Shown here: positions 20,398 to 39,158 of the stretch, piece after piece
Layout: every line of letters begins with the position of its first letter
Numbering within the stretch: position 1 is the first letter of the stretch
From: Actinomycetes bacterium
Lineage (GTDB): Bacteria > Actinomycetota > Actinomycetes > Jiangellales > Jiangellaceae
Direction of reading: 5' to 3'
Length of the DNA: 41,961 nt
Assembly (NCBI GenBank): GCA_021793295.1
Contig: JAJYTA010000016.1
Coordinates: 1 to 41,961 of the forward strand
Program-made: the position numbers and the translations under genes
Notes under the pieces: model-generated
Database searches by the model: none
The model's input: only the letters and a program-made list of their open reading frames with translations
What the model was told of the DNA's origin: nothing

Positions 20398-23300
20398 CGT
20401 CGACCCAAGAGCCCCGCTCGCCGGGACTGCTCGGTTCGAGCGCCGTCATGGCCGCCGGAACCGTGGTCTCGCGGCTGACCGGCTTCGCCCGGGCTGCGGT
20501 CATCGCGGCCGCCATCGGCCTGACCGCCACCACGGCGGACGTGTTCAACGTGCCCAACGTCATCCCGAACATGATCTACATCCTGGTCGGCGGTGGCGTT
20601 CTCAACTCGGTGCTCGTCCCGGTCCTGGTTCGGGCGATCAAGAACGACGCGGACGGCGGCCAGGCGTTCTCTCAACGGCTGTTCAGCCTGGCGGTGACGG
20701 TCCTCGGGCTGGCGACGATCGCGGCCGTCCTGGCGGCGCCGTGGATCATGCAGGTGATCGTCGACGACCGCTATCTCGAACCCGAGATGCGCCCGTACTT
20801 CGACAACATGGTCGCCTTCGCGCGCTTCTGCCTGCCGCAGATCTTCTTCTACGGCCTGTACGTGCTGATCGGGCAGATGCTCAACGCCAAGGGTCGGTTC
20901 GGACCGATGATGTGGTCCCCGATCCTCAACAACGTCGTCGCCATCGCGGTGTTCGCCGCGTTCCTGGTCGTCTACGGGAAGCAGGGCTTCGAGCCGTTCA
21001 CGACGAATCAGACCCTGTTGCTCGGGCTGGGCTCCACGTTCGGGGTCGTGGCGCAGGCGCTGGTCCTCCTGCCGGTCCTGCGCAAGACCGGCTTCTCGTT
21101 ACGGTTCCGGACCGACTGGCGTGGCCAGGGGCTGGGCGAGCCGATCCGGCTGGGCCTGTGGACGTTCGGTTTCGTCGTGGCCAACCAGTTGGCGTACTTG
21201 GTGGTCGTCAACGTCGCCTCGGGTGCGAGCAGTGCAGCGGCCGGCGACGCCGGGGCCGGCTACTCCGTGTACGCCAACGCCATGCTGATCATGATGGTGC
21301 CGCATTCGGTCATCACGGTGTCGCTGGCCACGGCACTGCTCCCCCGGTTGTCGGACCTCGCCTCGGAGGGCCACCTCGACGACGTCCGCACCAAGCTCGT
21401 CTCCGCGATCCGGATGTGCCTGGCCATCATCATCCCGCTGGGTGCGCTGATGGCCGCCTTGGCCTTCCCGCTCACGGCGATGATCTTCGACCACGGCTCC
21501 GCGCAGGGGCAGACCGGCCGGCTCGCGCTCACTCTGATCCTGCTCATGCCGGGACTCGTCGGCTTCACCGTCCACTATCTCGCGTTGCGCGGGTTCTACG
21601 CGCTGCAGGACACCAAGACCCCGTTCTTCACCCAGATCTGGGTGTCGGCGGTGATGATCGCCGCGGCGGTGGGCATCGCGGTGGTCGCGCCGGCCGCCCA
21701 GTACGTCACCATGGCCCTGGCCGGCGGTTACAGCCTCGCGTACATCGTCGGATCGACCATCGGCGTCCTGCGTTTGCAACGACGGATCGGGACCCTGGGC
21801 GGCAGCCGGATCGTCCAGCACACGGTCCGGCTGACGATGCACTCGCTGATCGCCGCCGGGATCGCGTGGCTGGTGTGGCGCGGCTGGACCGGTCTCGGCG
21901 TGCTCAGCAGCGCGCCGACGCTGATCGTCCGCCTGATCGAACTGGTCATCGGCGGCCTCGTCGGCGTCACCGTGTTCATCGGCCTCGCCTACGCCTTCCG
22001 CGTCGACGAAGTGCGGCGCGCCATCGCGATGATCATGGCGAAGCTGCGCGGAGCCCCGCCCGTGGCCCCGGCGCAGGTCGACATCGGCGACCTGCTCGAG
22101 GACACCGCGGAATACCAGCTGCCAGCTGAAACCGGCACGCTGAGCATCTTCCGCCGACCGGTCGACCCCGGCATGACCTCGGAGTTCTTCCTCGACGAGA
22201 CCCTGCCCGGCGTCCCCAGCTTCTTCGACACCGCGGCCGGGGGCATCCGCACCGCGAGCACCCACCCCCCGGCTCCGCCGAGCCCGATCGTGCCGGCCGT
22301 GCCACCGGCCGACACCCAGCCGAACCGGTCCGGCGATGCTGGCTCGCTGCCCCCACCGGGCGGCACCGTCCAGCCTGGTCAACGCCGCACGCTGGCCGGA
22401 CGCTACCGGTTCGAACGACTTCTCGACGATTCCGACGGCGTGCACTCCTGGCAGGCGGTGGATGACGTCCTGCGCCGCGCCGTGTTCATTCAGTCCGTCG
22501 ACGCGAACGACCCGCGCGCGCTGGGATTCGTCACGGCGGCGCGTGTGTCGTCCACCGTCTCCGACCCGCGTTTTCTCCGCGTGCTCGATGTCGGGACGGA
22601 CGACGTCGCCTACGTGGTGCGCGAATGGACCCCTGGGCAGAGCCTCGCCATGCTGCTCGGCGCCGGCGCCTTCGCGCCGGACCAGGCCGCGGCCATCGGG
22701 CGCGAGGTCGCCGAAGCGCTGGCCACGGCCCATTCCCAGGGCATGTCGCACCGCCGCATCGACCCCACCCTGGTCTTCGTGACAGCCGACGGATCGATCA
22801 AGATCGCCGGCCTCGAGACTGAACATGCGCTGCGCGGACCGAGCCCGGTACCGAACCCGCCCAGCGACCCGGCGCATCCCGATCCCGCGGAGCTCGACGC
22901 GATCGGCATCGGCAGTGTGCTCTACGCCGGGCTGACGGCTCGCTGGCCGGCGGGCCCATGCGGCGGCTTGGCGCCGGCCCCGCATATCGACGGTCGTCTC
23001 TGCTCGGCCCGCCAGGTTCGGCCTGGAGTTCCGACGATGCTCGACGCCGTGACCGACCGGGCCATCGGGCACGCCCGGCGCCATCACGCCCCGCCGTTGG
23101 TGACGCCGTTGGCGGTCGCAGCGGAGTTGAGTTCCGGCTCGCGGGGCTGGCGGCCGATGGTGGCCGAGCCGAACGTGTACGCCGACGACCGACCCGCTGT
23201 TCTCGACGAGCCCGGCGCGGCCGGCACCGTCGGGCGGGTCGAACCGCGCCGCGAACGGCGCAAGTCCGGACGGGCGTCCCGGGTACTCGGCGTCATGGCC

Positions 23301-23897
23301 GCGACGCTGTTGCTCGTGGGCTCGACTCTCGTGGGTCTTCAGCTCTTGCTCGGCGCCATCGACGATGCGACCAACGACGATCCTGGGGCGGCTGACACGC
23401 CCTCGGCCGGCGACACCACGTCCGGCGAGGAGACACCCGCGGCCGATCCCACACCGCTCGAGGTGGCCGAGGCGAAGGACTTCGATCCCGACGGCAACGG
23501 CGAAGAGAACCCCAGCGACGTCGGCAACGTTCTCGACGGTGACGATGAGACCGCTTGGACCACCGTCAATTACTACGACCCGATGGAGGCGCAGAAGGCC
23601 GGCGTCGGGCTCTACCTCGACCTCGGTGAAGCCGTCGACGTACGAGAGATCCGCCTCGATCTGCTCAACGAGGGGTCGTCGCTCGAGCTTCGCGTGGCCG
23701 CCGAAGACGCCGACGACGCCCCTGACGATCTCGACGACTGGACCGTCATCGACGAGATCGAGGGAGCCGATCAAAATGTCGTGCACGGTCTGGACGAGGC
23801 CGTCACGACGCGCTACGTGCTCGTGTGGTTCACTGCGTTGCCACTGGACGGCGACAACTATCGTGGCGGCATCACGAATGCGGAGGTGCTGGGGTGA
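20394..23897 (+). CDS. murJ: MurJ lipid II flippase fused to a pseudokinase and discoidin-like domain (Rv3910-like)
   Basis: Moves lipid II across the membrane. Residues 1-560 are an MviN/MurJ core with about fourteen helices (SRLTGFARAAVIAAAIG, FNVPNVIPNMIYILVGGG, ALRGFYALQDTKTPFFTQ). A Thr/Pro-rich juxtamembrane linker follows, then a kinase-like domain (about 663-900) lacking catalysis: the HRD loop reads HRRIDPTLVFV, DFG is replaced by KIAGLE, and the VAxK lysine is absent. A helix near 965-987 leads to an extracellular discoidin-like domain (about 1025-1167; NVLDGDDETAWTT, YLDLGEAVDVREIRLDL). In Mycobacterium the same design recruits the FHA protein FhaA after phosphorylation by PknB. 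GTG 20394 overlaps the DUF6049 stop, and the end overlaps sigM. Confidence 0.93.
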   Translation: MTSTQEPRSPGLLGSSAVMAAGTVVSRLTGFARAAVIAAAIGLTATTADVFNVPNVIPNMIYILVGGGVLNSVLVPVLVRAIKNDADGGQAFSQRLFSLAVTVLGLATIAAVLAAPWIMQVIVDDRYLEPEMRPYFDNMVAFARFCLPQIFFYGLYVLIGQMLNAKGRFGPMMWSPILNNVVAIAVFAAFLVVYGKQGFEPFTTNQTLLLGLGSTFGVVAQALVLLPVLRKTGFSLRFRTDWRGQGLGEPIRLGLWTFGFVVANQLAYLVVVNVASGASSAAAGDAGAGYSVYANAMLIMMVPHSVITVSLATALLPRLSDLASEGHLDDVRTKLVSAIRMCLAIIIPLGALMAALAFPLTAMIFDHGSAQGQTGRLALTLILLMPGLVGFTVHYLALRGFYALQDTKTPFFTQIWVSAVMIAAAVGIAVVAPAAQYVTMALAGGYSLAYIVGSTIGVLRLQRRIGTLGGSRIVQHTVRLTMHSLIAAGIAWLVWRGWTGLGVLSSAPTLIVRLIELVIGGLVGVTVFIGLAYAFRVDEVRRAIAMIMAKLRGAPPVAPAQVDIGDLLEDTAEYQLPAETGTLSIFRRPVDPGMTSEFFLDETLPGVPSFFDTAAGGIRTASTHPPAPPSPIVPAVPPADTQPNRSGDAGSLPPPGGTVQPGQRRTLAGRYRFERLLDDSDGVHSWQAVDDVLRRAVFIQSVDANDPRALGFVTAARVSSTVSDPRFLRVLDVGTDDVAYVVREWTPGQSLAMLLGAGAFAPDQAAAIGREVAEALATAHSQGMSHRRIDPTLVFVTADGSIKIAGLETEHALRGPSPVPNPPSDPAHPDPAELDAIGIGSVLYAGLTARWPAGPCGGLAPAPHIDGRLCSARQVRPGVPTMLDAVTDRAIGHARRHHAPPLVTPLAVAAELSSGSRGWRPMVAEPNVYADDRPAVLDEPGAAGTVGRVEPRRERRKSGRASRVLGVMAATLLLVGSTLVGLQLLLGAIDDATNDDPGAADTPSAGDTTSGEETPAADPTPLEVAEAKDFDPDGNGEENPSDVGNVLDGDDETAWTTVNYYDPMEAQKAGVGLYLDLGEAVDVREIRLDLLNEGSSLELRVAAEDADDAPDDLDDWTVIDEIEGADQNVVHGLDEAVTTRYVLVWFTALPLDGDNYRGGITNAEVLG

Positions 23898-27606: not shown

Positions 27607-27645
27607 TAGTCGACACGTACCGCTGTGACGGGAGGAAGAGCACAC

Positions 27646-30423
27646 ATGCGCGTTTCCGCCCCACGGATCGGGCAACTCAGCGCAGGCGACGCCGGCCCGC
27701 CCGCCCGACTGGCCCACGCGGTGCGCGCGGCCGAGGATGCCGCGCGAGCCCTCTACGATCTCGCCGAAGCCGCCGCCGACGGTGAAAACCGGCGCCACGA
27801 CGCGGACCGGCAAGCGCTGACGCGCGACTCCGAACGTCGCCGGACACACGCCAACGCCCTGCTGGATGCCGCGACCGATCGCGTACGCCTCGACATCTCC
27901 GACCTACTCGGCCGCAGTCCGCGCTACTCGCACGCCCCCTGGGACGCTCCTGTGTGGGACGAGCCGTACGACGAACCCGTCGAGACCCCACGTGTGGTCC
28001 AGGCGGCGACACTGGGCCTGGCGGCGCCGCACAGCATCGTCGAGCTGCCGTTCGTGCTGCCCACGCTCGGCGCCAACGTCGTCATCACTCACGCCACCGG
28101 CGGCCGGGCCCCAGCGCACAACCTCGCGCAGGCGTTCGTGACCCGGGCCTTGGCATCGGCGCTGCCCGGTTCGCTTCGGGTGCACCTGCTCGACGCCGGC
28201 GGTCTGGGCCAGAACCTCGGCATTCTCAGCCGCGTGCCCGAGCCGTTGGTCAGCGGTGGCGTCCGGGCGACCCACGAAGAGATCTCGGCCGAGCTGTCCG
28301 CGGTGCGCGACCATGTGCACCGGCTGAACAGCCGTGTTCTGCTCGGCGACGACGACTCCCTGGTGAAGCGTTGGCAAACCGGCACCGCTCAGGGCATCGC
28401 GTGCACGCTGGTCTTCGCCGCCGGTGTCGACACCGGGATGCACGCCGACGACGCAGCCCAACTGTGGGCACTGGCCCGCACCGGCAACCGGTGCGGCGTC
28501 GGCGTCGTCGCCGTCATCGACACCGGCCGCGATCTCCCGCCCGGCGTCGACCTCACCGATCTCACCGACGTCGCCGAACACATCCACGTCGACCACGAGG
28601 GTGGTGCGACGTGGGAGTCCTCGCCGCCCACCCTGCATCACAACGCCCGGCTCCGGTGCCCGAACCCACCCGGTTCAGCCCAGCATCGATTCCTGGCGAC
28701 CACGGTGGCTCCCGCGGCCCAGCGCGGCTCCAATCGCCCCGTCCACCTGGCCGACATCCTCGCCACCGAAGAACCCGGGACCGGACGCACCCTCACCTCC
28801 ATCTCGGCACCAGTCGGTGTGCGCGCCGACGGCACGACGATGGAACTCGGGGTGGGCGACGACGAGAGCGTGGCCATCGGCGGGATCATCGTCGGGCCGT
28901 CCGGGTCGGGGAAGACGACGCTCCTGCACGGCTTGATCCATGCGTTGGCGCACCGCTACTCGCCCGACGAGCTGGAGATGTACCTGCTGGACATGAAAGC
29001 AGGGGTCGAGTTCGCCGAGTACGCGACCCGGCCGGACCGACCGGCCATGCCGCACGTCCGGGTGGTCGGCATCGAAGCGGACGCGACGTTCGCCCTCGGT
29101 GTGCTCAAGGATCTCAGTGGTGTCGATGCCGAGCGCAAACAGCTGTTCAAGGAAGCGTCGCTGACCTATGGGCAGGAGATCAAGAACATCGCCGAGTACC
29201 GCGATGTCACCGGCCAGACACTGCCGCGGATCCTGTTCGTCGTCGACGAATTCCAGCTCATGCTCACCGGCCCCACAGAAGACGCCGCCTGGGACCTCCT
29301 GGACGTCCTGGCCAAACAAGGCCGCAGCCAGGGCATCCACCTGCTGCTGGCCACCCAGAGCCTCAACTCGGTCGGCACCGGCCGCGGACTGCAGAAGGCG
29401 TCGGTCTTCGACCAACTCGAGCTGCGCGTCGGGCTACGCTGCAAACCCGACGAACTGTCCAACCTGTTCGACCGCACCGTGCGGGAGCGGCTCGACACCG
29501 GGCGTCGCGGTTCCGGCGTCCTCAACCAGGCCCGCGGCGACAAAGACGCCGACCAACTTTTCCAGGCGGGGATGCTGGGGCCGGACGAGCGCCGGCGGAT
29601 TCGCACCGACGTTCTCGAGTTGTACGGCCCGGACTCGCGCATCCGTGTCAGCCGCGGCGCCGGCGCAGTCGACATCTGCGACGTCACCGACGTCCTGACT
29701 GCCACCGCCACGCCCACCATCCACCTGGGCGCACCGGTGGGGGTGAATCCGCCGTTGATCGGCGTGCCGGCGCTCGCCGGCGACGGGCGCGGGCTGCTGA
29801 TGTCGTGCCGCGACGAGCGCCATGCCATCGCAGCGATCAGCGCCATCATGGCCGGCCTCGCCATCCAGCCAGGCTGCCGCGATGCCGGGTTCGTCGTGGT
29901 CGATCTGCTTCCCGACGGCATACCGGCCCGTCGGGTCCTGGACCGTTTGGTCACGCAGCTCGGGAGCCGGATACGCACGGTGACCGAAGCCGACCTCGAC
30001 ACGTTGCCCGACGTCGCCACCCGCGCGGACGGCCCGACGTTCGTCGCGGTCCTCGGGATGCAGTACGCCACGACCGAGGTCCCCTATTACTCCACGGGCG
30101 ACGACGACGTGCATCCGTTGAGCTGGTTGTGCGGCACCGCGCCGTCCCAGTCGGTGTTCCCGCTGATCTGGCTGGACACGCCCGAACGGCAGCGCGCCCT
30201 GGGCCCGCACGGTGAACGGCTGCAGTTGCGGGCCGATGCCGGCTCGGATCTGATCGACACCGCGACGTTCCTGGGCCAGCGCCCGCCGTTCCCGGCCACT
30301 CGGGGCCGGATGTGGTTCCACGATCTGGCCGGTGACGGCGAACCGGTCCTCGTGGATCCGTTGACGATCGGTGCCGACATCCCGCTGCCGCGCACGCCGG
30401 TCGACTCGGAGCCGGCGCGATGA
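27646..30423 (+). CDS. FtsK/SpoIIIE-type ATPase with three modules, only the middle one intact
   Basis: A 925-residue soluble protein. An Arg/Ala-rich helical N-terminus (to about 85) is followed by three FtsK-like modules. Module 1 (about 115-330) keeps the fold outline (VHLLDAGGLGQNLGIL, ARTGNRCGVGVVAVID) but has no P-loop. Module 2 has Walker A GPSGSGKTT (417-425), MYLLDMKAGVEF, Walker B ILFVVDEFQLML (about 529-540) and LLLATQSLNS. Module 3 (about 690-900) again has only traces (GRGLLMSCRDERHAIAAI, FVVVDLLPDG). Tandem modules resemble EccC/EssC motors of type VII secretion, but there is no membrane segment and no FHA domain. ATG 27646 has GGAGGAAGAG upstream. Translationally coupled to the next gene (ATGA). 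Substrate, protein or DNA, is unknown. Confidence 0.88.
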   Translation: MRVSAPRIGQLSAGDAGPPARLAHAVRAAEDAARALYDLAEAAADGENRRHDADRQALTRDSERRRTHANALLDAATDRVRLDISDLLGRSPRYSHAPWDAPVWDEPYDEPVETPRVVQAATLGLAAPHSIVELPFVLPTLGANVVITHATGGRAPAHNLAQAFVTRALASALPGSLRVHLLDAGGLGQNLGILSRVPEPLVSGGVRATHEEISAELSAVRDHVHRLNSRVLLGDDDSLVKRWQTGTAQGIACTLVFAAGVDTGMHADDAAQLWALARTGNRCGVGVVAVIDTGRDLPPGVDLTDLTDVAEHIHVDHEGGATWESSPPTLHHNARLRCPNPPGSAQHRFLATTVAPAAQRGSNRPVHLADILATEEPGTGRTLTSISAPVGVRADGTTMELGVGDDESVAIGGIIVGPSGSGKTTLLHGLIHALAHRYSPDELEMYLLDMKAGVEFAEYATRPDRPAMPHVRVVGIEADATFALGVLKDLSGVDAERKQLFKEASLTYGQEIKNIAEYRDVTGQTLPRILFVVDEFQLMLTGPTEDAAWDLLDVLAKQGRSQGIHLLLATQSLNSVGTGRGLQKASVFDQLELRVGLRCKPDELSNLFDRTVRERLDTGRRGSGVLNQARGDKDADQLFQAGMLGPDERRRIRTDVLELYGPDSRIRVSRGAGAVDICDVTDVLTATATPTIHLGAPVGVNPPLIGVPALAGDGRGLLMSCRDERHAIAAISAIMAGLAIQPGCRDAGFVVVDLLPDGIPARRVLDRLVTQLGSRIRTVTEADLDTLPDVATRADGPTFVAVLGMQYATTEVPYYSTGDDDVHPLSWLCGTAPSQSVFPLIWLDTPERQRALGPHGERLQLRADAGSDLIDTATFLGQRPPFPATRGRMWFHDLAGDGEPVLVDPLTIGADIPLPRTPVDSEPAR

Positions 30424-31163
30424 CCGCCGACGCCGGGGTCGAATCGGCCAGCCGTGCCGACGCCGACCGGTACCGCGCGCCGCGGGCTGCCGCGATGCAG
30501 GAGTACTGTGCCACCCTGTCGCGGTTCACCTCGTCGGTCCACAGCACCGAGCTGATGCTGCGGCACGAGGAAGCGACCATCGCCGACGAGTCAGACCAGG
30601 TCGACCAGGCCGCGGCCGCCCGGCTGCGAGGCGTCGAGCGGGCCCGGGCCGAAGCGCAGGCGGGTCTGGAGCACACCGCCACGGTTCGCGAGGCCCACGG
30701 CGTCACCGGAGCCGACTCCAACGGCCCCACCGGCCGGCCTATCCGCCGGCGGGCCAGCAGCGGCGACCTCGGCATCGCGCTCACCTCGTTGGCTCGCCGT
30801 CGCGACGAACTCCGTGCCGCCGAGGCAGAGTTCGACACCTGGCTGCAGTCTCACGACCAGAAGGCGCAGCGTGTGGTGTTCGGCGCTGCGGGTGCGGCCG
30901 GCGTCCTCGGCGCCGTCGCCATGGTGATCGTCGGTGGCTCCGCTCCGCCGGTGTGGACGTTGTCGCTGTTGCTCGCCGGCGTCGTCGTGGTCACCGCCGC
31001 CGGACTGGCCACCGGAGTGCTCGTCCGCCTGCCCGCGCTGTGTGCCGGGCCGAGTTTGGTCCGTGAACCACAAGCCACGGCGGTGTCCCGGTTCGCCGCG
31101 GCGTTGGCCGGTGTGGCGGCCGCCGGATTCATCGGCATCGCCGTCGCCACCGGTGCGCTGTGA
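30420..31163 (+). CDS. Coiled-coil membrane protein coupled to the FtsK-type ATPase
   Basis: A 247-residue protein. Residues 1-145 are helical and charged (ATIADESDQVDQAAAARLRG, RRRDELRAAEAEFDTWL), probably coiled coil in the cytoplasm. Three hydrophobic helices follow near 150-170, 176-200 and 222-245. Its ATG overlaps the ATPase stop, so the two are made in a fixed ratio and likely bind each other; it could tether the soluble motor to the membrane. No family recognised. Confidence 0.8.
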   Translation: MTADAGVESASRADADRYRAPRAAAMQEYCATLSRFTSSVHSTELMLRHEEATIADESDQVDQAAAARLRGVERARAEAQAGLEHTATVREAHGVTGADSNGPTGRPIRRRASSGDLGIALTSLARRRDELRAAEAEFDTWLQSHDQKAQRVVFGAAGAAGVLGAVAMVIVGGSAPPVWTLSLLLAGVVVVTAAGLATGVLVRLPALCAGPSLVREPQATAVSRFAAALAGVAAAGFIGIAVATGAL

Positions 31164-31182
31164 GAACGACCTGCGCTGACGG

Positions 31183-31213
31183 CGTCACAGAAACACCGGA
31201 CCGGGCACCTACA
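31183..31213 (+). promoter_or_regulatory. Cluster element B: bipartite promoter-like motif
   Basis: CGTCACAGA (31183-31191), 14 bases, CACCTACA (31206-31213). It is 80 bases before ATG 31293 and 41 before an in-frame ATG at 31254; the second distance matches the other elements but has no ribosome site. Confidence 0.8.
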
Positions 31214-31292
31214 TCACCGAGAAGCACCACCGAGGAATGGCGTCCATGCAGCCATGGACGGAGTGAATCGACCTGGGAAGGACGGGCGACGA

Positions 31293-31898
31293 ATGCCGAG
31301 CATCAAGGAGTCCGGTGAGATCCTCATCGGCGTCTCGAACGACCTCGTCCGTGGCGGTGACGAGACGTCCCGCGGTCTCGCGGAGTTGCAACGCAAGGCC
31401 GACGCGGCGGTCGAGGCGCTCAACGGGCTACAGGCGCCGGCCGAGGAGGCCAAGGCCGCCGCGGCTCGACTGAAGGCGAAGGCCACCGAGGTGCGGGCCA
31501 CGTTCGACGACCTGCTTCGCTCCGCATCCACGGCCGAGGAGGCGGCGAAAGTCCTGAACACGGCCTGCAGCAACCTGCAACGTGGAGACGCCGACCTGGC
31601 CGCGACGTTCGAGCCACGCATCCGGCCGATTGCCGCGCAGGTCACCACGTTCACCGACAGCCTGCGCGAGACCGCGGTCAAGCTGCAACAGGCCGTCGAC
31701 GGTCTGATCGACGGCGCCGACCACATCGGCAGCAACACCGAGCAGCTCCAGGCCGGCGGCCAGCAGGTCGGCAAGAGCGCCACCCAGGTCAGCTCCGGGC
31801 TGGGACAGGCCCGCAAACAGCTGGGCCAGGTGATCCCCACCGCGGCCAAGACCGTCGGCGACCGGGGCCGCGAGGTCGTCCACGCCGCACGGCGGTAA
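31293..31898 (+). CDS. Helical coiled-coil protein of the cluster
   Basis: A 201-residue, almost entirely helical protein without membrane segment or signal peptide: long runs such as RGLAELQRKADAAVEALNGL and AARLKAKATEVRATFDDLL, and a C-terminal SNTEQLQAGGQQVGKSATQV like the signalling domains of chemoreceptors. ATG 31293 is preferred because GGGAAGGAC lies ten bases upstream; ATG 31254 would give 214 residues. It could be a scaffold, an adaptor or a secreted helical substrate. No cysteine-based or enzymatic motif. Followed after 42 bases by a second helical protein. Confidence 0.75.
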   Translation: MPSIKESGEILIGVSNDLVRGGDETSRGLAELQRKADAAVEALNGLQAPAEEAKAAAARLKAKATEVRATFDDLLRSASTAEEAAKVLNTACSNLQRGDADLAATFEPRIRPIAAQVTTFTDSLRETAVKLQQAVDGLIDGADHIGSNTEQLQAGGQQVGKSATQVSSGLGQARKQLGQVIPTAAKTVGDRGREVVHAARR

Positions 31899-31940
31899 TG
31901 CCACCTCGCAGCTCGCGCCATTGAAGGGAGGTGAGCGACG

Positions 31941-32321
31941 GTGTCCGTGGCTCCGCACCGCCGGCTCCAGCTGGTCCAGACCGAAGTACGCGAACTCGAG
32001 CGGGCTTGCCAGTCACTCGAACGGAGCGTCTCTCAGGCCGGCCAGGCGACCGAGCGCAGCGCCGAGCACCTCGCGGCCACCCGCAAACGGATCGTCGCCG
32101 CCACCGAGCAATGCGTGCCCTCGGCCGACGATGCCGCCATCGCTCGGCGGATCACCGACGCGGTCACGACGGCTTTCACCGCTGCGGACAAGTCGTTACG
32201 TGAGCACTGGCAGCAGATCCGCGACATCTTGCTCCGAGCCCTGAAGCGCGTCACGGCCGAACTACACGAAAAGCGTCGTGTACTGCGACAACTCGAACTG
32301 GAGCTGAGCCGGCGGCGATAG
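31941..32321 (+). CDS. Small helical protein of the cluster
   Basis: A 126-residue protein predicted to be all helix: a heptad-like N-terminal part (QLVQTEVRELERACQSLERS), a middle, and KSLREHWQQIRDILLRALKR, then an Arg/Glu-rich end. Size and helix content recall WXG100 proteins but the WxG turn is missing. GTG 31941 has GGGAGGTGAG eight bases before it. Its last bases overlap the -10 box of the HD/LuxR gene. Possible partner of the preceding coiled-coil protein. Confidence 0.7.
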   Translation: MSVAPHRRLQLVQTEVRELERACQSLERSVSQAGQATERSAEHLAATRKRIVAATEQCVPSADDAAIARRITDAVTTAFTAADKSLREHWQQIRDILLRALKRVTAELHEKRRVLRQLELELSRRR

Positions 32322-34525: not shown

Positions 34526-34834
34526 TCAGTCGCTACCCCAGCCTTCGGTGTTGATCTGCCGCTCGCGCTGGTGGCGACTGATCACCGACCCGATGACCAG
34601 GATCAACACCACGAGGCAGACGAGCAGCACCACGTGAGCGCTGCCGATCCCGGCGCCGTCCCACCCGGGAACCGACCAGGTGGCGTCGTCGGCCGAGGCG
34701 ATGAAGCCTCGTTCGATCATCCACTCCCGGCCTTCGTCCCACGCTCCGAAACCCAGTGGGGCGAGGATCGGCAGCGCGAGTGGCACGGCCAGCAACATGA
34801 TGAACGCGTCGTTGTCGGACATCGAGTCGGCCAC
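34526..34834 (-). CDS. Small two-helix membrane protein of the cluster
   Basis: A 102-residue protein with helices near 11-30 (FIMLLAVPLALPILAPLGF) and 66-86 (AHVVLLVCLVVLILVIGSVI), joined by an acidic and aromatic loop with DEGREWMIERGF. GTG 34834 has AGGTGA eight bases upstream; ATG 34822 is too far from it. It lies 22 bases after the degenerate FtsK gene and shares its transcript, driven by element E. No family recognised. Confidence 0.75.
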   Translation of the reverse strand: MADSMSDNDAFIMLLAVPLALPILAPLGFGAWDEGREWMIERGFIASADDATWSVPGWDGAGIGSAHVVLLVCLVVLILVIGSVISRHQRERQINTEGWGSD

Positions 34835-34856: not shown

Positions 34857-36737
34857 TCAGTAGACCCCGTCGTTCATGTGCCGGATGCGTACCGTCCGGG
34901 TCCGTGAAACGACGAGCGATCCGGCTCCGTCCGTTCCGCGCCATCCGATCGAGACCTTGGTGCCGTCGTTCTCGACGGCCTCGACCTGCTCGACGACGAC
35001 CCAGCCGGTCTCGTCGTCGAGACGGGCCAGATGGCCGGGTTCGAGCTGCGACACCATCACGACCTCGGACCAGCCTTCGACGTCCTTGCCGCGCGTCCCG
35101 GACGGTCCTGCCGACCCGGACGCTCCTGCCGACCCGGATGAGCGCGCCCGGCTCCAGTCCACCAGCCCGCTCGCCCCGTGGGAGAACCCTTCGGCGAGGT
35201 CGGCCTCCATGAGCGACTTCCACGCAGCGGCCGGGGTGTCGTTCCACACCCGCGGGCGCTGCACGTGCAACACCGGGTGGGTCACGACGTGTGGGCGGAA
35301 CGCCTCGACGAGCGTGGCGTCGTCGGCATCGCCGGAGCGACGGGCCTCGCGGGGGTCGGGCGTCCAGTAACACTGCAGCGTCACGGGAGGCGCGTCGCCG
35401 AGGCGCAGCTTGGCCCGCCCGGGGACCGCTTCGGTGCCGTCTTCGTCGTCATCGGCTGAGGATCGCAGTGCGGGCGTCGAGTGCGCATCCATGCGTCCCA
35501 GGGCCACGACCGCGCCGAGGTCGTCGGCGTACTCGTCGCGCAGCAGAGGGTCGTCGGAGCGCTGGACGCTGAGCACGATGATCATGTTGACGCGCCGACC
35601 GTGCCGGAGCAGGTCGGCGACCCGGTCGGCCGCGGTGGGGGCACCGGCGGAAGCCTGTCCGGCACGGGCGGCGGCCTCGGCGGCGGCCGTCGCGAACTCG
35701 CGGAAGTGATGGATGACGACCATCATCGGCTCCAGTTCGGACCGGTCGGCGCCGGACTCGACGAGCGCGACTCGGCCCTCCATCTCGCGCCACGCCTGAT
35801 TGAGCACGACGATCTGGTCGTCCAATGTGGACGCGACGATCTGCACGTTGGGCCAGTCGCGCACGCCGAGCAGGTCGACTCGACGATGGTCGATGACCCA
35901 GACCGGCCAGCCACGCGCGGCGGCCTCGAGGATCAGCCCGGTCAGCAGAACCCGCTTGCCGGACCCGGACCGGCCCAGCGCGAGCAGATGCCCCTGCGGC
36001 GCAAGCGGATCCCACGCGACGCGAGTCCCGGACGAGTCGACGCCCAGCGGGATCACCTGCCCCGCGAGGTCGTCAGCTGAGGGCGCCGTCCGACTGACGT
36101 GGTCAGGCAGGCGGCGGGCGGCAGCGGCTCGGCGCGAAGACACCGGGCCCGATTCCGGGCTCAACTGCCCCGGCGAGCGCGTGGGGTCGCGAAGCGTCAA
36201 ACGACGGTCGCGGACATTGTGCCGGGCGACGACGTACTGCTCGCCCAACTCAGCGTGGACCGCCGTAGCCACCTGCTCGGCCCAATCGGCGGACGAGTCG
36301 TCCACCGCAGCCGGATACCTCACATTGAGAAGATGTGGCACGCCGACCCAGCCGCCGCGCCACTGCCGGGTGTCGATCTCGAGGTACTCCGCACCAGGAA
36401 CCTGAAGGTGGCCGGCCAGCGCATCGGCCAGCGCCTGGACCACGGCGTCACGCAACCGGCGCCGAACCGACAGCACGTACAGCCCGATCGCTGCGGCCAC
36501 CACCGGCAGGGCGAGGACCAAGCCCACGGCCGGCTGATCGAGCACGGCGAGGATGGCCCAGATCGCTGCGCCGAGCAGGGCGATGGCCATGGCGCTGCGA
36601 GCCAGCCCGGCTGCGCTGAAACCGTTGTGCGTGGGGGCGGCCGGTTTCGCGGCGTCGAATCGACGGTCGTGCGCGCCGGCCTCGTCAGGTTCGTGCTCGG
36701 TTGCGGTCGACGCTTCCGCCGGTTCGTGTCGGGCCAC
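34857..36737 (-). CDS. Membrane-anchored FtsK/SpoIIIE-like protein with degenerate Walker motifs
   Basis: A 626-residue protein. Two helices (about 47-65 and 70-90) anchor it; a small domain follows (about 95-200), then one FtsK-like module: GHLLALGRSGSGKRVLLTGLI, VWVIDHRRVDLLGV, PMMVVIHHFREF, RRVNMIIVLSVQRSDDPLL. Walker A keeps K261 but the next residue, normally Ser/Thr for Mg, is Arg262; Walker B has His343-His344 instead of Asp-Glu. ATP hydrolysis is therefore doubtful. A Ser/Gly linker and a basic beta C-terminus follow. GTG 36737 has AGGAGGTG six bases before it. It may be the membrane docking half of a split motor, as EccCa is to EccCb in ESX systems, with the intact soluble ATPase at 27646 as partner. 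Confidence 0.85.
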   Translation of the reverse strand: MARHEPAEASTATEHEPDEAGAHDRRFDAAKPAAPTHNGFSAAGLARSAMAIALLGAAIWAILAVLDQPAVGLVLALPVVAAAIGLYVLSVRRRLRDAVVQALADALAGHLQVPGAEYLEIDTRQWRGGWVGVPHLLNVRYPAAVDDSSADWAEQVATAVHAELGEQYVVARHNVRDRRLTLRDPTRSPGQLSPESGPVSSRRAAAARRLPDHVSRTAPSADDLAGQVIPLGVDSSGTRVAWDPLAPQGHLLALGRSGSGKRVLLTGLILEAAARGWPVWVIDHRRVDLLGVRDWPNVQIVASTLDDQIVVLNQAWREMEGRVALVESGADRSELEPMMVVIHHFREFATAAAEAAARAGQASAGAPTAADRVADLLRHGRRVNMIIVLSVQRSDDPLLRDEYADDLGAVVALGRMDAHSTPALRSSADDDEDGTEAVPGRAKLRLGDAPPVTLQCYWTPDPREARRSGDADDATLVEAFRPHVVTHPVLHVQRPRVWNDTPAAAWKSLMEADLAEGFSHGASGLVDWSRARSSGSAGASGSAGPSGTRGKDVEGWSEVVMVSQLEPGHLARLDDETGWVVVEQVEAVENDGTKVSIGWRGTDGAGSLVVSRTRTVRIRHMNDGVY

Positions 36738-36927: not shown

Positions 36928-38304
36928 ATGTGGAAGAAGGTCGCCATCGGTGGCGGACTCCTCATGCTGGTGGCACCGATGGTGCTGTTCGCCGCCGCGC
37001 TCGGCATCGTCTCGGCGGCCGCGTGCGAAGCCATGGACGACATACCGTTCGTCGAATGCGAGTTCCTGCTCGAGGGAGGCCTGGACGGAGATCAGTGCGG
37101 TGAGGTGCCCGTGGAGGTCTCCGGCAACATCCCGGACGAGTGGCGAGAAATTTTCGCTGAAGCCGCCGACAAGTTCCACGTCAACCCGAACTTCCTCGCA
37201 GCGATCTACCTGACGGAGAACGGCAACACGTGGCGGCCCCTCGACTCGAACTGGGCCAGCTCACCTGCCGGTGCCACCGGGCCGATGCAGTTCATGCCTG
37301 GGACGTGGAGCGATTACGGCATCGACGGCGACGGTGACGGCACCGCGGACATCTCCGACCCCACCGACGCCGTCCACACCGCGGCCAGCCTGTTCTCGGC
37401 TTCGCCCCACAAAGGCCCGCCGATCTACGGCTCCACGTCCCCGGACATGGCGACCGGGTCGATCGGCAAGCCGTGGCTGCCAGGCACGTTGCTCTACGCC
37501 GCGGCGAGCTACAACGCCGGTCCTGGCACCATCACGAAGTACACCAGTGCTGACGACGGCCTCGACGATCCGCAGTGGACCCGGGTGTGGGAGGTCCGCC
37601 GCTATCTGCACAACATCCACGCCTTGCTGGATTCCAACCTGACCAAAAGTGGTGTCACCAGCGAGAACGGCTACACCGGGTTGTCCGGAGGCCGCACCGA
37701 TCACGTCGGCCATTACCTCCGCGAGTGGAGCGATCCGCATGGCCTGGGCGTCGGCGGTACCGACGGTGACGACGGCGAGGACGGTGGCTCCGGGGACGAC
37801 TGTGACGTACCGGACGGCGATCTCAACGCTGTCGTCGAGGTGGCCCGTCGGGAGTTCGAGCGCGGTGCCCGGGAAGAACCCGGGTGTGGTTTCGTCTGCG
37901 ACGAGTACATCGACGACGGCGACGAAGCCTGGTGCGCGGACTTCGTCAGCTGGGTCTTCCGCGAGGCCGGCGTGCCGTTCAAACCGACGCCGATGACGCG
38001 GATGTACTTCTGGCGCCACGACTGGCAGATCCCCGCCGTCATCGGGATGCAACGGTGGTTCCGCCTCGGCTCGCACGGCAGCGAGTTCTTCACCCCCGAC
38101 CAGAAGGATCCCCGCCCGGGCGACGTCGCGATCTACACGGGTCACGTCAACATCGTGGTGGCCGTGGACCCATCGCGGGACATGCTCGTCACCATCGGCG
38201 GTAACGAGTCCGACACCGTTCAGCAGACCAGTGGAACGTTCTCGGCAGGCACGAGTTCCGGACTCGTAGGATACGGCCGCATCAACGCCGAGCCGGCCGA
38301 CTAG
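36928..38304 (+). CDS. Secreted cell-wall hydrolase: lytic transglycosylase plus CHAP domain
   Basis: A 458-residue protein with an N-terminal membrane anchor or signal (about 3-30). The GH23 transglycosylase part has catalytic Glu97 in AIYLTENGN, then GATGPMQFMPGTWSDYG and LYAAASYNAGPGTI. An acidic Gly/Asp linker (about 272-296) leads to a CHAP amidase/peptidase domain with Cys336 in EAWCADFVSWVFREAG and His406 in PGDVAIYTGHVNIVVAV. This pairing of glycan and peptide cutting is the hallmark of hydrolases in Gram-positive conjugation systems (CwlT, Tn916 Orf14), which open the wall for a transport apparatus. Driven by element C and first in an operon with the next gene. Confidence 0.9.
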   Translation: MWKKVAIGGGLLMLVAPMVLFAAALGIVSAAACEAMDDIPFVECEFLLEGGLDGDQCGEVPVEVSGNIPDEWREIFAEAADKFHVNPNFLAAIYLTENGNTWRPLDSNWASSPAGATGPMQFMPGTWSDYGIDGDGDGTADISDPTDAVHTAASLFSASPHKGPPIYGSTSPDMATGSIGKPWLPGTLLYAAASYNAGPGTITKYTSADDGLDDPQWTRVWEVRRYLHNIHALLDSNLTKSGVTSENGYTGLSGGRTDHVGHYLREWSDPHGLGVGGTDGDDGEDGGSGDDCDVPDGDLNAVVEVARREFERGAREEPGCGFVCDEYIDDGDEAWCADFVSWVFREAGVPFKPTPMTRMYFWRHDWQIPAVIGMQRWFRLGSHGSEFFTPDQKDPRPGDVAIYTGHVNIVVAVDPSRDMLVTIGGNESDTVQQTSGTFSAGTSSGLVGYGRINAEPAD

Positions 38305-38315
38305 GAGTAACGGCG

Positions 38316-39158
38316 ATGCCTGACGAGGCGCCCCAGCGTGAGAAGTTCACCGTCGCGCAACTGGTGCTCGCAGCCGCGGCGCTCGCCGTCGTCGGGCTGG
38401 TCCTCATCTTCGGGTTCGGTGGCGACGACTCGGACGAGCCCGGCACGTCACAGCCCGCGAGCCAGGCCGACGGTGACGATGCGGATGGCGCTGACGATGA
38501 CGGCGGTGACGGCGATGATGCCAACAGTGCTCCCGACGTCACGTCATCTCCCGAACCGTCGACGACCGCCGACGACGAAACCTCCCCGCCTCCGCTGCCA
38601 CCTGGTATGGAACGCCCCGGGCCGACGGAAGCGCCCGATCCGGCCACCGTCGACCACCAGTCGCCGTCGCAGATCGCACTCGCGGCCTTGACGGCGGCCT
38701 ACTCGATGGACACGACCACCGACGAGTCACCGGCCGACGCCATGCAGCGCGTGGAGCCGTGGCTGGCCGACACCTGGAAATCGCGCGAGTACGACCTCAA
38801 GGACCTCGAAGACGAAGTCGAAGACGACTGGAACGACTGGGCCGATCACGACGGCTATGCCTCGATCAACGTGATCCAGGACGTCATCTCCAATGACGCC
38901 GTGTCTCCGCAGGAACGCGGCGACACCGAGACGACGGCGATGCGCAAGATCGCCGTCAGCTTCACCCCCTTGGGCCGCGACGGCTGGAACGGTCAGCTCG
39001 AGGACGCGACATGGTACGTGCACATGGAGCGCCCGTCGGCGTCGGACCCGTGGACGATCGTCGAGATGCGCCGCCCCGTCTTCGACCCCACCACCCGCCC
39101 ACTGCCCACCGGTTCACCGAATTCCTGGAGTTCAACGCATGACCCCGGCAATAGATGA
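38316..39158 (+). CDS. Bitopic envelope protein with VirB8/TcpC-like layout
   Basis: A 280-residue protein: short cytoplasmic part (1-15), one helix near 16-36 (LVLAAAALAVVGLVLIFGF), an acidic Asp/Gly/Ser/Pro linker to about 110, and a compact extracellular domain (about 115-260; AALTAAYSMDTTTDESPADAMQRVEPWLADTW, TAMRKIAVSFTPLG, WYVHMERPSASDPWTIVEMR) that reads like an NTF2-like fold. VirB8 and TcpC channel proteins of conjugation systems share this layout; the match is by architecture, not by proven homology. It starts eleven bases after the wall hydrolase and overlaps the next gene. Confidence 0.75.
   Translation: MPDEAPQREKFTVAQLVLAAAALAVVGLVLIFGFGGDDSDEPGTSQPASQADGDDADGADDDGGDGDDANSAPDVTSSPEPSTTADDETSPPPLPPGMERPGPTEAPDPATVDHQSPSQIALAALTAAYSMDTTTDESPADAMQRVEPWLADTWKSREYDLKDLEDEVEDDWNDWADHDGYASINVIQDVISNDAVSPQERGDTETTAMRKIAVSFTPLGRDGWNGQLEDATWYVHMERPSASDPWTIVEMRRPVFDPTTRPLPTGSPNSWSSTHDPGNR

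Follow-up and report, generated by a model that had tools for sequence, protein, structure and literature searches.

What an FtsK-like protein may be doing when the residues on which ATP hydrolysis depends have been replaced is the question raised by a gene on a Jiangellaceae contig (JAJYTA010000016.1, assembly GCA_021793295.1), analysed here as a stretch of 41,961 nucleotides, hereafter the window. The gene (34857..36737, (-) strand, GTG start) encodes 626 aa, and its GC content by codon position (0.77/0.52/0.85) is coding-like. The product consists of two transmembrane helices, an alpha/beta linker domain, a RecA-like core (residues ~225-495) and a C-terminal beta domain (~560-626). The two membrane helices reported in a preliminary description are indeed present as N-terminal hydrophobic helices, at residues ~42-65 and 69-91+ judging by sequence and at 42-65 and 69-111 when sequence and model are combined. 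The Pfam family FtsK_SpoIIIE is matched with 24.2 bits against a cut-off of 24 (E=2.7e-5), which is a bare pass.

An FtsK-like protein with altered Walker motifs

The Thr or Ser of Walker A normally holds Mg, and the Asp-Glu pair of Walker B holds Mg and activates water. Re-reading of the ORF bore out the unusual residues and the coordinates first given: the P-loop G255-RSGSG-K261 is followed by Arg262 in place of Thr/Ser (GRSGSGK-R, residues 255-262, 35952..35975, (-) strand), and in Walker B (VVIHH, residues 340-344) the Asp-Glu pair is replaced by His343-His344 (35706..35711, (-) strand). With all of these residues lost, hydrolysis should be gone, as far as sequence can tell. The P-loop glycines and Lys261 are kept and could still bind phosphate, so that a possibly nucleotide-binding, non-hydrolysing protein is a reasonable description. 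Three further changes had escaped the preliminary description: DHRR (residues 283-286, 35880..35891, (-) strand) replaces DPK/DGK at a place where canonical proteins have D[PGA]K, RHGR (residues 378-381, 35595..35606, (-) strand) replaces (K)GR with a fixed His379 for the usual Lys, and a conserved WYxxxKxxGxPxK segment has lost its Tyr/Lys positions.

The altered residues are fixed and under purifying selection

Lost Walker residues alone would look the same in a useless gene undergoing simple decay, and orthologues with canonical GKT and DE had been named as the sign of it. Among 99 relatives searched, full-length orthologues (62-64% identity) were found in G001, a genome of the window's genus, and in 12/12 Jiangella genomes, with none in the family's other four genera; a scan of GTDB contigs gave matches solely in Jiangella species, on which the naming of that genus as Jiangella rests, and scans of viral contigs gave no viral relatives. 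Alignment of these orthologues, the check proposed at the outset, showed GKR and HH to be exact in all 14 carrier genomes (12 Jiangella and two of the window's genus), with GKT/DE in none of them. The orthologues are ~62% identical overall to the window protein, yet GKR/HH are unchanged, and a stretch reading RGWPVW..DHRRVDLLGVRDWPNVQIVASTLDDQIVVL is near-invariant. Since Thr262, Asp343 and Glu344 are in turn invariant in 14/14 canonical relatives (described below), the substitutions cannot be put down to chance. At Arg262, His343, His344 and His379 the codons have changed synonymously while the residue stayed constant (CGG/CGC/AGG for Arg262 and CAT/CAC for His343 and His344).

Rates of change, obtained as Nei-Gojobori counts, point the same way. 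In five Jiangella pairs dN/dS was 0.01-0.08 for the core (residues 240-415), compared to 0.20-0.34 for the N-terminal and 0.09-0.27 for the C-terminal part of the same pairs. A second set of three Jiangella genomes gave 0.12-0.14 for the core and 0.09-0.13 for VirB4, the ATPase encoded nearby (see below). Values against G001 were higher (0.24-0.26 for the core, 0.14-0.17 for VirB4), and these between-genus figures are rough as synonymous sites are near saturation. Within Jiangella the altered core therefore changes as slowly as the active VirB4 and is not decaying: it is under strong purifying selection. Because the replacements are fixed in 14 genomes, their codons change synonymously and the core has a low dN/dS, we rejected simple decay, which we regard as scarcely credible.

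A core related to the TcpA coupling protein

A single-sequence search of the PDB with the degenerate protein returned nothing useful. A profile built from the degenerate proteins alone had one match in the PDB, TcpA of pCW3 (E=0.001, residues 248-461), in which GRSGAGKR is aligned with GETGSGKS and VVVHHFRE with VVIDELAE; a mixed profile matched TcpA with E=6e-10. The likeness to TcpA (PDB 6o1w-6o1z) thus extends over ~215 aligned residues including both Walker motifs, and over the N-terminal transmembrane helices, the difference being Arg for the Walker A Thr/Ser and HH for DE. AlphaFold2 models were weak (mean pLDDT 47.6 and 58.8), with a better core (blocks at 60-88), and Foldseek searches with them placed TcpA, EssC/EccC and FtsK together at the top, TcpA and EssC/EccC being not clearly separated; the best fold matches of the core model include TcpA. 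The features of TcpA/FtsK-type proteins found here are a TcpA-homologous core, N-terminal helices and a context of VirB4, VirB8/TcpC, VirB6 and a cell-wall hydrolase, while the Walker A G-x4-GK-[ST] and Walker B hhhDE of TcpA-type coupling proteins are missing. The curated EccC model TIGR03925 scored 22.5 bits against a cut-off of 346.55, which sets the protein apart from EccC/EccCb. We conclude that its identity as a TcpA-type coupling protein is well supported; its function we infer in what follows. An FtsK/SpoIIIE chromosome translocase was considered and rejected, given the absence of a Pfam match to the KOPS-reading gamma-domain, the altered Walker motifs and the presence of a separate FtsK on contig C1.

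The same substitutions could be read as a rebuilt active site, in which His343/His344, together with His284, His379 and Arg262, would bind a metal or other ligand and serve a chemical activity or the sensing of another nucleotide. Several new His and Arg residues have been fixed at or near the active site, rather than the old ones merely lost, and purifying selection is strong. However, His284 of DHRR is Gln in one orthologue (G015), and the models are too weak for active-site geometry. To our knowledge no FtsK-like protein with such a His/Arg site has been described, and we consider this reading unlikely.

The gene occupies the coupling-protein slot of a type IV secretion locus

Downstream of the degenerate gene, after a gap of 22 bp, lies a gene for a small membrane protein of 102 aa (34526..34834, (-) strand), which is 64-85% identical in every relative locus and has homologues placed alike beside canonical relatives (L064, L065 and a Rhodococcus qingshengii plasmid). 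On the other side are genes for a membrane-anchored lytic transglycosylase with a CHAP domain (36928..38304, (+) strand; PF13406, PF01464, PF05257), the VirB1-like cell-wall hydrolase of this locus, and for a single-TM extracytoplasmic protein outside all Pfam families (38316..39158, (+) strand), both conserved in the relatives. The latter has the same place as the ~200-aa "hypothetical" protein beside the plasmid lysin, a likeness by position alone.

The window's contig ends inside the cluster, and in this fragmented genome the cluster is spread over two contigs, C26 and C62, with the VirB6-VirB4-TcpC-Tad part on C62; their join is inferred from the relatives. In those with long contigs the degenerate gene adjoins trxB-trx, close to the genes for DUF6049, murJ and a sigma factor. 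Beyond it follow the transglycosylase/CHAP protein, the small membrane-anchored protein, a multi-TM protein and VirB4 (AAA_10), then a small membrane protein in the place of VirB3/PrgI, a pilin-like one that is also small, and TcpC (PF12642), and finally SAF, CpaE-like, CpaF and other Tad genes. VirB4, for which TcpF is the best NCBIfam model, has kept its Walker motifs (GELGAGKS and VDEAHH) in all Jiangellaceae loci read. The transfer regions of pAP13, the R. qingshengii plasmid and pAL1 show the same order (TcpC, pilin-like, PrgI-like, VirB4, VirB6, lysin, small protein, FtsK-like, small protein), which puts the degenerate protein in the slot of the coupling protein of a type IV secretion system (T4SS). 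Its company of TcpC/VirB8, VirB4, VirB6 and cell-wall hydrolase is that of the TcpA family in MPF_FA systems (PMC12857230); unlike those systems, the Jiangellaceae locus is chromosomal, vertically inherited and has no relaxase of the families searched nearby. That the protein descends from a coupling protein, belongs to a T4SS locus and is now a fixed pseudo-ATPase is, in our judgement, very probable.

Two other features of these clusters were noted. CpaF/SAF genes stand beside the T4SS genes on pAP13 as well, and Tad-type genes (SAF, CpaE-like, CpaF, TadB) adjoin T4SS genes both on this Brevibacterium plasmid (L077, 1-4253) and on Jiangellaceae chromosomes (L057), which suggests that the two modules travel together and perhaps work together. 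In Jiangellaceae (L060, 9810-10589; L063 of G007, 21833-23516 of the joined stretch; the L056/L057 junction of G001) one or two DnaJ-domain membrane proteins separate the VirB6-like gene from that of the lysin, and none do so in the plasmids read.

Canonical relatives and a single burst of change

Relatives of the protein of G030, a canonical homologue, are found on 307 PLSDB plasmids, mostly actinobacterial. A canonical set of 14 was made up of 12 PLSDB plasmid proteins, the G030 protein and the one encoded by a second system of Jiangella G009; GKT and DE are present in all 14 of these distant relatives, which come from plasmids and mobile elements of actinobacteria. Transfer proteins with an FtsK/SpoIIIE domain, encoded on Brevibacterium pAP13, on Rhodococcus plasmids, on Arthrobacter pAL1 and by the paralogous element of G009, share the surrounding gene order; the closest of them also share the C-terminal beta domain, and several have a similar small membrane protein downstream. 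They differ in keeping GKT, DE and WYxxxKxxGxPxK, the last of which, we suggest, might contact DNA. With conserved positions defined as those shared by at least 13/14 canonical proteins within residues 200-499 (n=65), 27 are kept in Jiangellaceae, including the P-loop glycines, Lys261, Asp283, Gln392 and Arg393, and 26 are lost, including Thr262, Asp343 and Glu344 as well as Tyr/Lys in WYxxxKxxGxPxK.

The timing of this loss can be read from trees of the same ten loci, where the stem branch to Jiangellaceae measures 1.07 substitutions/site for the coupling-protein core and 0.26 for VirB4. Identity to G030 is likewise 37-44% for the Jiangellaceae coupling protein and 61-63% for VirB4, whereas in canonical pairs the relation is often reversed, with the coupling protein more alike than VirB4 (e.g. 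60% and 45%). The long stem followed by low dN/dS means that the coupling protein changed fast once and slowly ever since.

The genome of Jiangella G009 (L064, contig C223) carries its canonical T4SS, with a GKT/DE coupling protein, besides the degenerate chromosomal locus, and the VirB4 proteins of the two are 64% identical. That related canonical systems reach the same hosts would suit a role in immunity to conjugation, with the dead coupling protein acting as a poison to the motors of incoming conjugative plasmids that have a related T4SS. However, this would leave unexplained why the whole T4SS, VirB4 included, is kept under purifying selection, and the identity between the coupling proteins (~30%) is low for mixed hexamers; we hold such interference to be very improbable.

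An EccC-like ATPase in the neighbourhood

The preliminary description had proposed a partnership of the EccCa/EccCb kind with an intact ATPase 4.4 kb away, and that ATPase does lie at a distance of 4434 bp on the (+) strand (27625..30423). It is EccC-like (932 aa, canonical GPSGSGKT/VDEF; PDB 4nh0 at E=5e-26, TIGR03924 at E=1e-29). Together they would form a mixed motor with the degenerate protein as its non-hydrolysing partner, and the neighbourhood is what speaks for it: the two genes are 4.4-6 kb apart in every Jiangellaceae genome having either, and both are missing from the family's other genera. The partnership itself found no further backing. The proteins belong to different families, one EccC-like and the other in the TcpA-like slot of a T4SS; relatives of the EccC-like ATPase (~30-40% identity) are found in ~40 genomes of the class that gave no match to the profile of the degenerate protein (two best candidates scored per genome in these class-wide scans); canonical plasmid and ICE relatives of the degenerate protein have no EccC-like neighbour; and the genes lie on opposite strands in separate gene sets. 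A single ancestor may account for their being present or absent together. The idea is supported by neighbourhood alone, and we take a mixed motor to be improbable.

The EccC-like ATPase, which has no obvious membrane helix, is followed by three coiled-coil proteins (30420-31163, 31254-31898 and 31941-32321, all (+) strand), and the stretch 27625-32321 has the look of a type VII-like gene set in its own right, so far uncharacterised. The gene for the ATPase in the Jiangella genome G011 (L039, C143:6150-8903) contains a single in-frame TGA.

A locus that has probably ceased to be conjugative

In all carriers with enough flank examined, the locus lies beside trxB-trx, neither patchy nor in a mobile location. 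A PF03432 relaxase was absent from 11/11 genomes searched, a TrwC relaxase was found in none of G000, G003 and the closed genome G013, and neither family occurs near the locus; MOBT, MOBV or novel relaxases could exist beside these two. Where TrwC is on the same contig, it is ~0.35 Mb (G021), 0.74 Mb (G015), 1.7 Mb (G007) or 2.4 Mb (G018) off. The constant place and the lack of a nearby PF03432/TrwC relaxase led us to reject a self-transmissible element (ICE or plasmid). VirD4-type coupling proteins are absent altogether from G000, G003, G007 and G013, and some genomes have ICEs with TrwC and VirD4 elsewhere, away from the locus.

The locus might still transfer DNA if another motor supplied hydrolysis in trans, be it a VirD4 from an ICE in the same genome, FtsK or the EccC-like ATPase, with the dead subunit as a docking part. 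The rest of the transfer module, VirB4 included, is intact, and some genomes have the ICEs just mentioned. However, G000, G003 and G013 keep the locus with neither VirD4, TrwC nor PF03432, and we find continued transfer of this kind improbable. Coupling proteins mutated in Walker A are unable to support conjugation (PMC7434980). A T4SS locus that is domesticated and no longer conjugative appears the probable state.

What the pseudo-ATPase may do

Other secretion systems offer points of comparison. In type VII secretion, EccC/EssC have the same FtsK-type ATPase fold with degenerate elements kept: the DUF domain of EccC5 retains degenerate cis/trans elements for secretion and has a proposed role in pore opening and closing (PMC11154593). 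There the dead domain is fused to an active ATPase domain, whereas in Jiangellaceae it is a separate protein and the active motor is VirB4. Several Gram-negative T4SSs (Ptl, Brucella VirB, ComB, Bartonella Trw) have no VirD4 coupling protein (PMC12857230) and thus likewise work without a coupling ATPase; they have no coupling-protein gene, which in the Gram-positive Jiangellaceae is kept, conserved and catalytically altered. Streptomyces SffA (SCO1416), described with SmeA (PMC4255298), is a chromosomal, "weakly FtsK-like" protein with an N-terminal membrane region and a small membrane partner gene, and its Walker residues are altered too (GSGTTT, LDRP). The replacements differ from GKR/HH, the sequence is very distant, and the gene lies near rbpA, outside a T4SS, with the partner gene upstream.

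A Streptomyces FtsK-like protein from our scans (L066:10485-12134, (-) strand; L021, L022, L074, L075) matches SffA by neighbourhood, with a 64-aa SmeA-like membrane protein just upstream and rbpA nearby. Walker A Lys (GSGTTT/GSGTST/GGGTST) and Walker B Glu (LLDRP) are lost in 4/4 loci of this kind, so that this appears to be a further FtsK-type pseudo-ATPase that is fixed and has a small membrane protein as its partner. L021 and L022 were tried as distant orthologues of the Jiangellaceae protein and rejected, since their gene neighbourhood matches that of SffA and they are too far removed to be placed.

We suggest that a complete T4SS cluster of the actinobacterial-plasmid kind settled beside trxB-trx and has since been inherited vertically, and that its TcpA-like coupling protein would have turned into a pseudo-ATPase in the ancestor that Jiangella shares with the window's genus. 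The protein may form a membrane ring with its small membrane partner, the kept P-loop perhaps binding a nucleotide or other anion, with neither ATP hydrolysis nor DNA pumping. It would then sit where a VirB4-driven channel or pilus has its base and serve there as gate, receptor or scaffold, a role resembling that thought for the degenerate ATPase domains of EccC. Such a non-hydrolysing role is favoured by the residue loss, by the EccC precedent and by the Gram-negative T4SSs that lack a coupling ATPase. Taken as a whole, the account we think probable, on the strength of sequence comparison, is that of a T4SS which has been domesticated and is inherited vertically, and in which the coupling protein, of TcpA type, persists as a fixed pseudo-ATPase with the role of a non-hydrolysing gate or receptor. 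The gate or receptor role, judged by itself, is plausible but falls short of being probable. More tentative still is the fuller picture of a domesticated chromosomal Gram-positive T4SS without DNA transfer, in which the former coupling ATPase, as gate or receptor, would perhaps have a His/Arg ligand site, and VirB4 and the adjacent Tad-type module would power a pilus or protein export.

We found no description of the Jiangellaceae locus or of an ATPase-dead coupling protein in the open-access literature, outside which most subscription journals lie. Nearly all known Gram-positive T4SSs move DNA alone, and whether they have other jobs has been called a long-standing question (PMC12857230). Jiangellaceae, in which a whole plasmid-type T4SS has been handed down by descent, with a coupling motor that was altered at its catalytic residues and afterwards held constant by selection, offer a natural test case for it, and the locus separates the structure of a coupling protein from hydrolysis in harmless, culturable soil bacteria. 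Taken with this protein, EccC and perhaps SffA point to a repeated turn of FtsK-type motors into conserved pseudo-ATPases in actinobacteria. In Jiangellaceae, the strong conservation of a motor that lacks its hydrolysing residues suggests that the machine has been recruited to a job other than ordinary DNA transfer.
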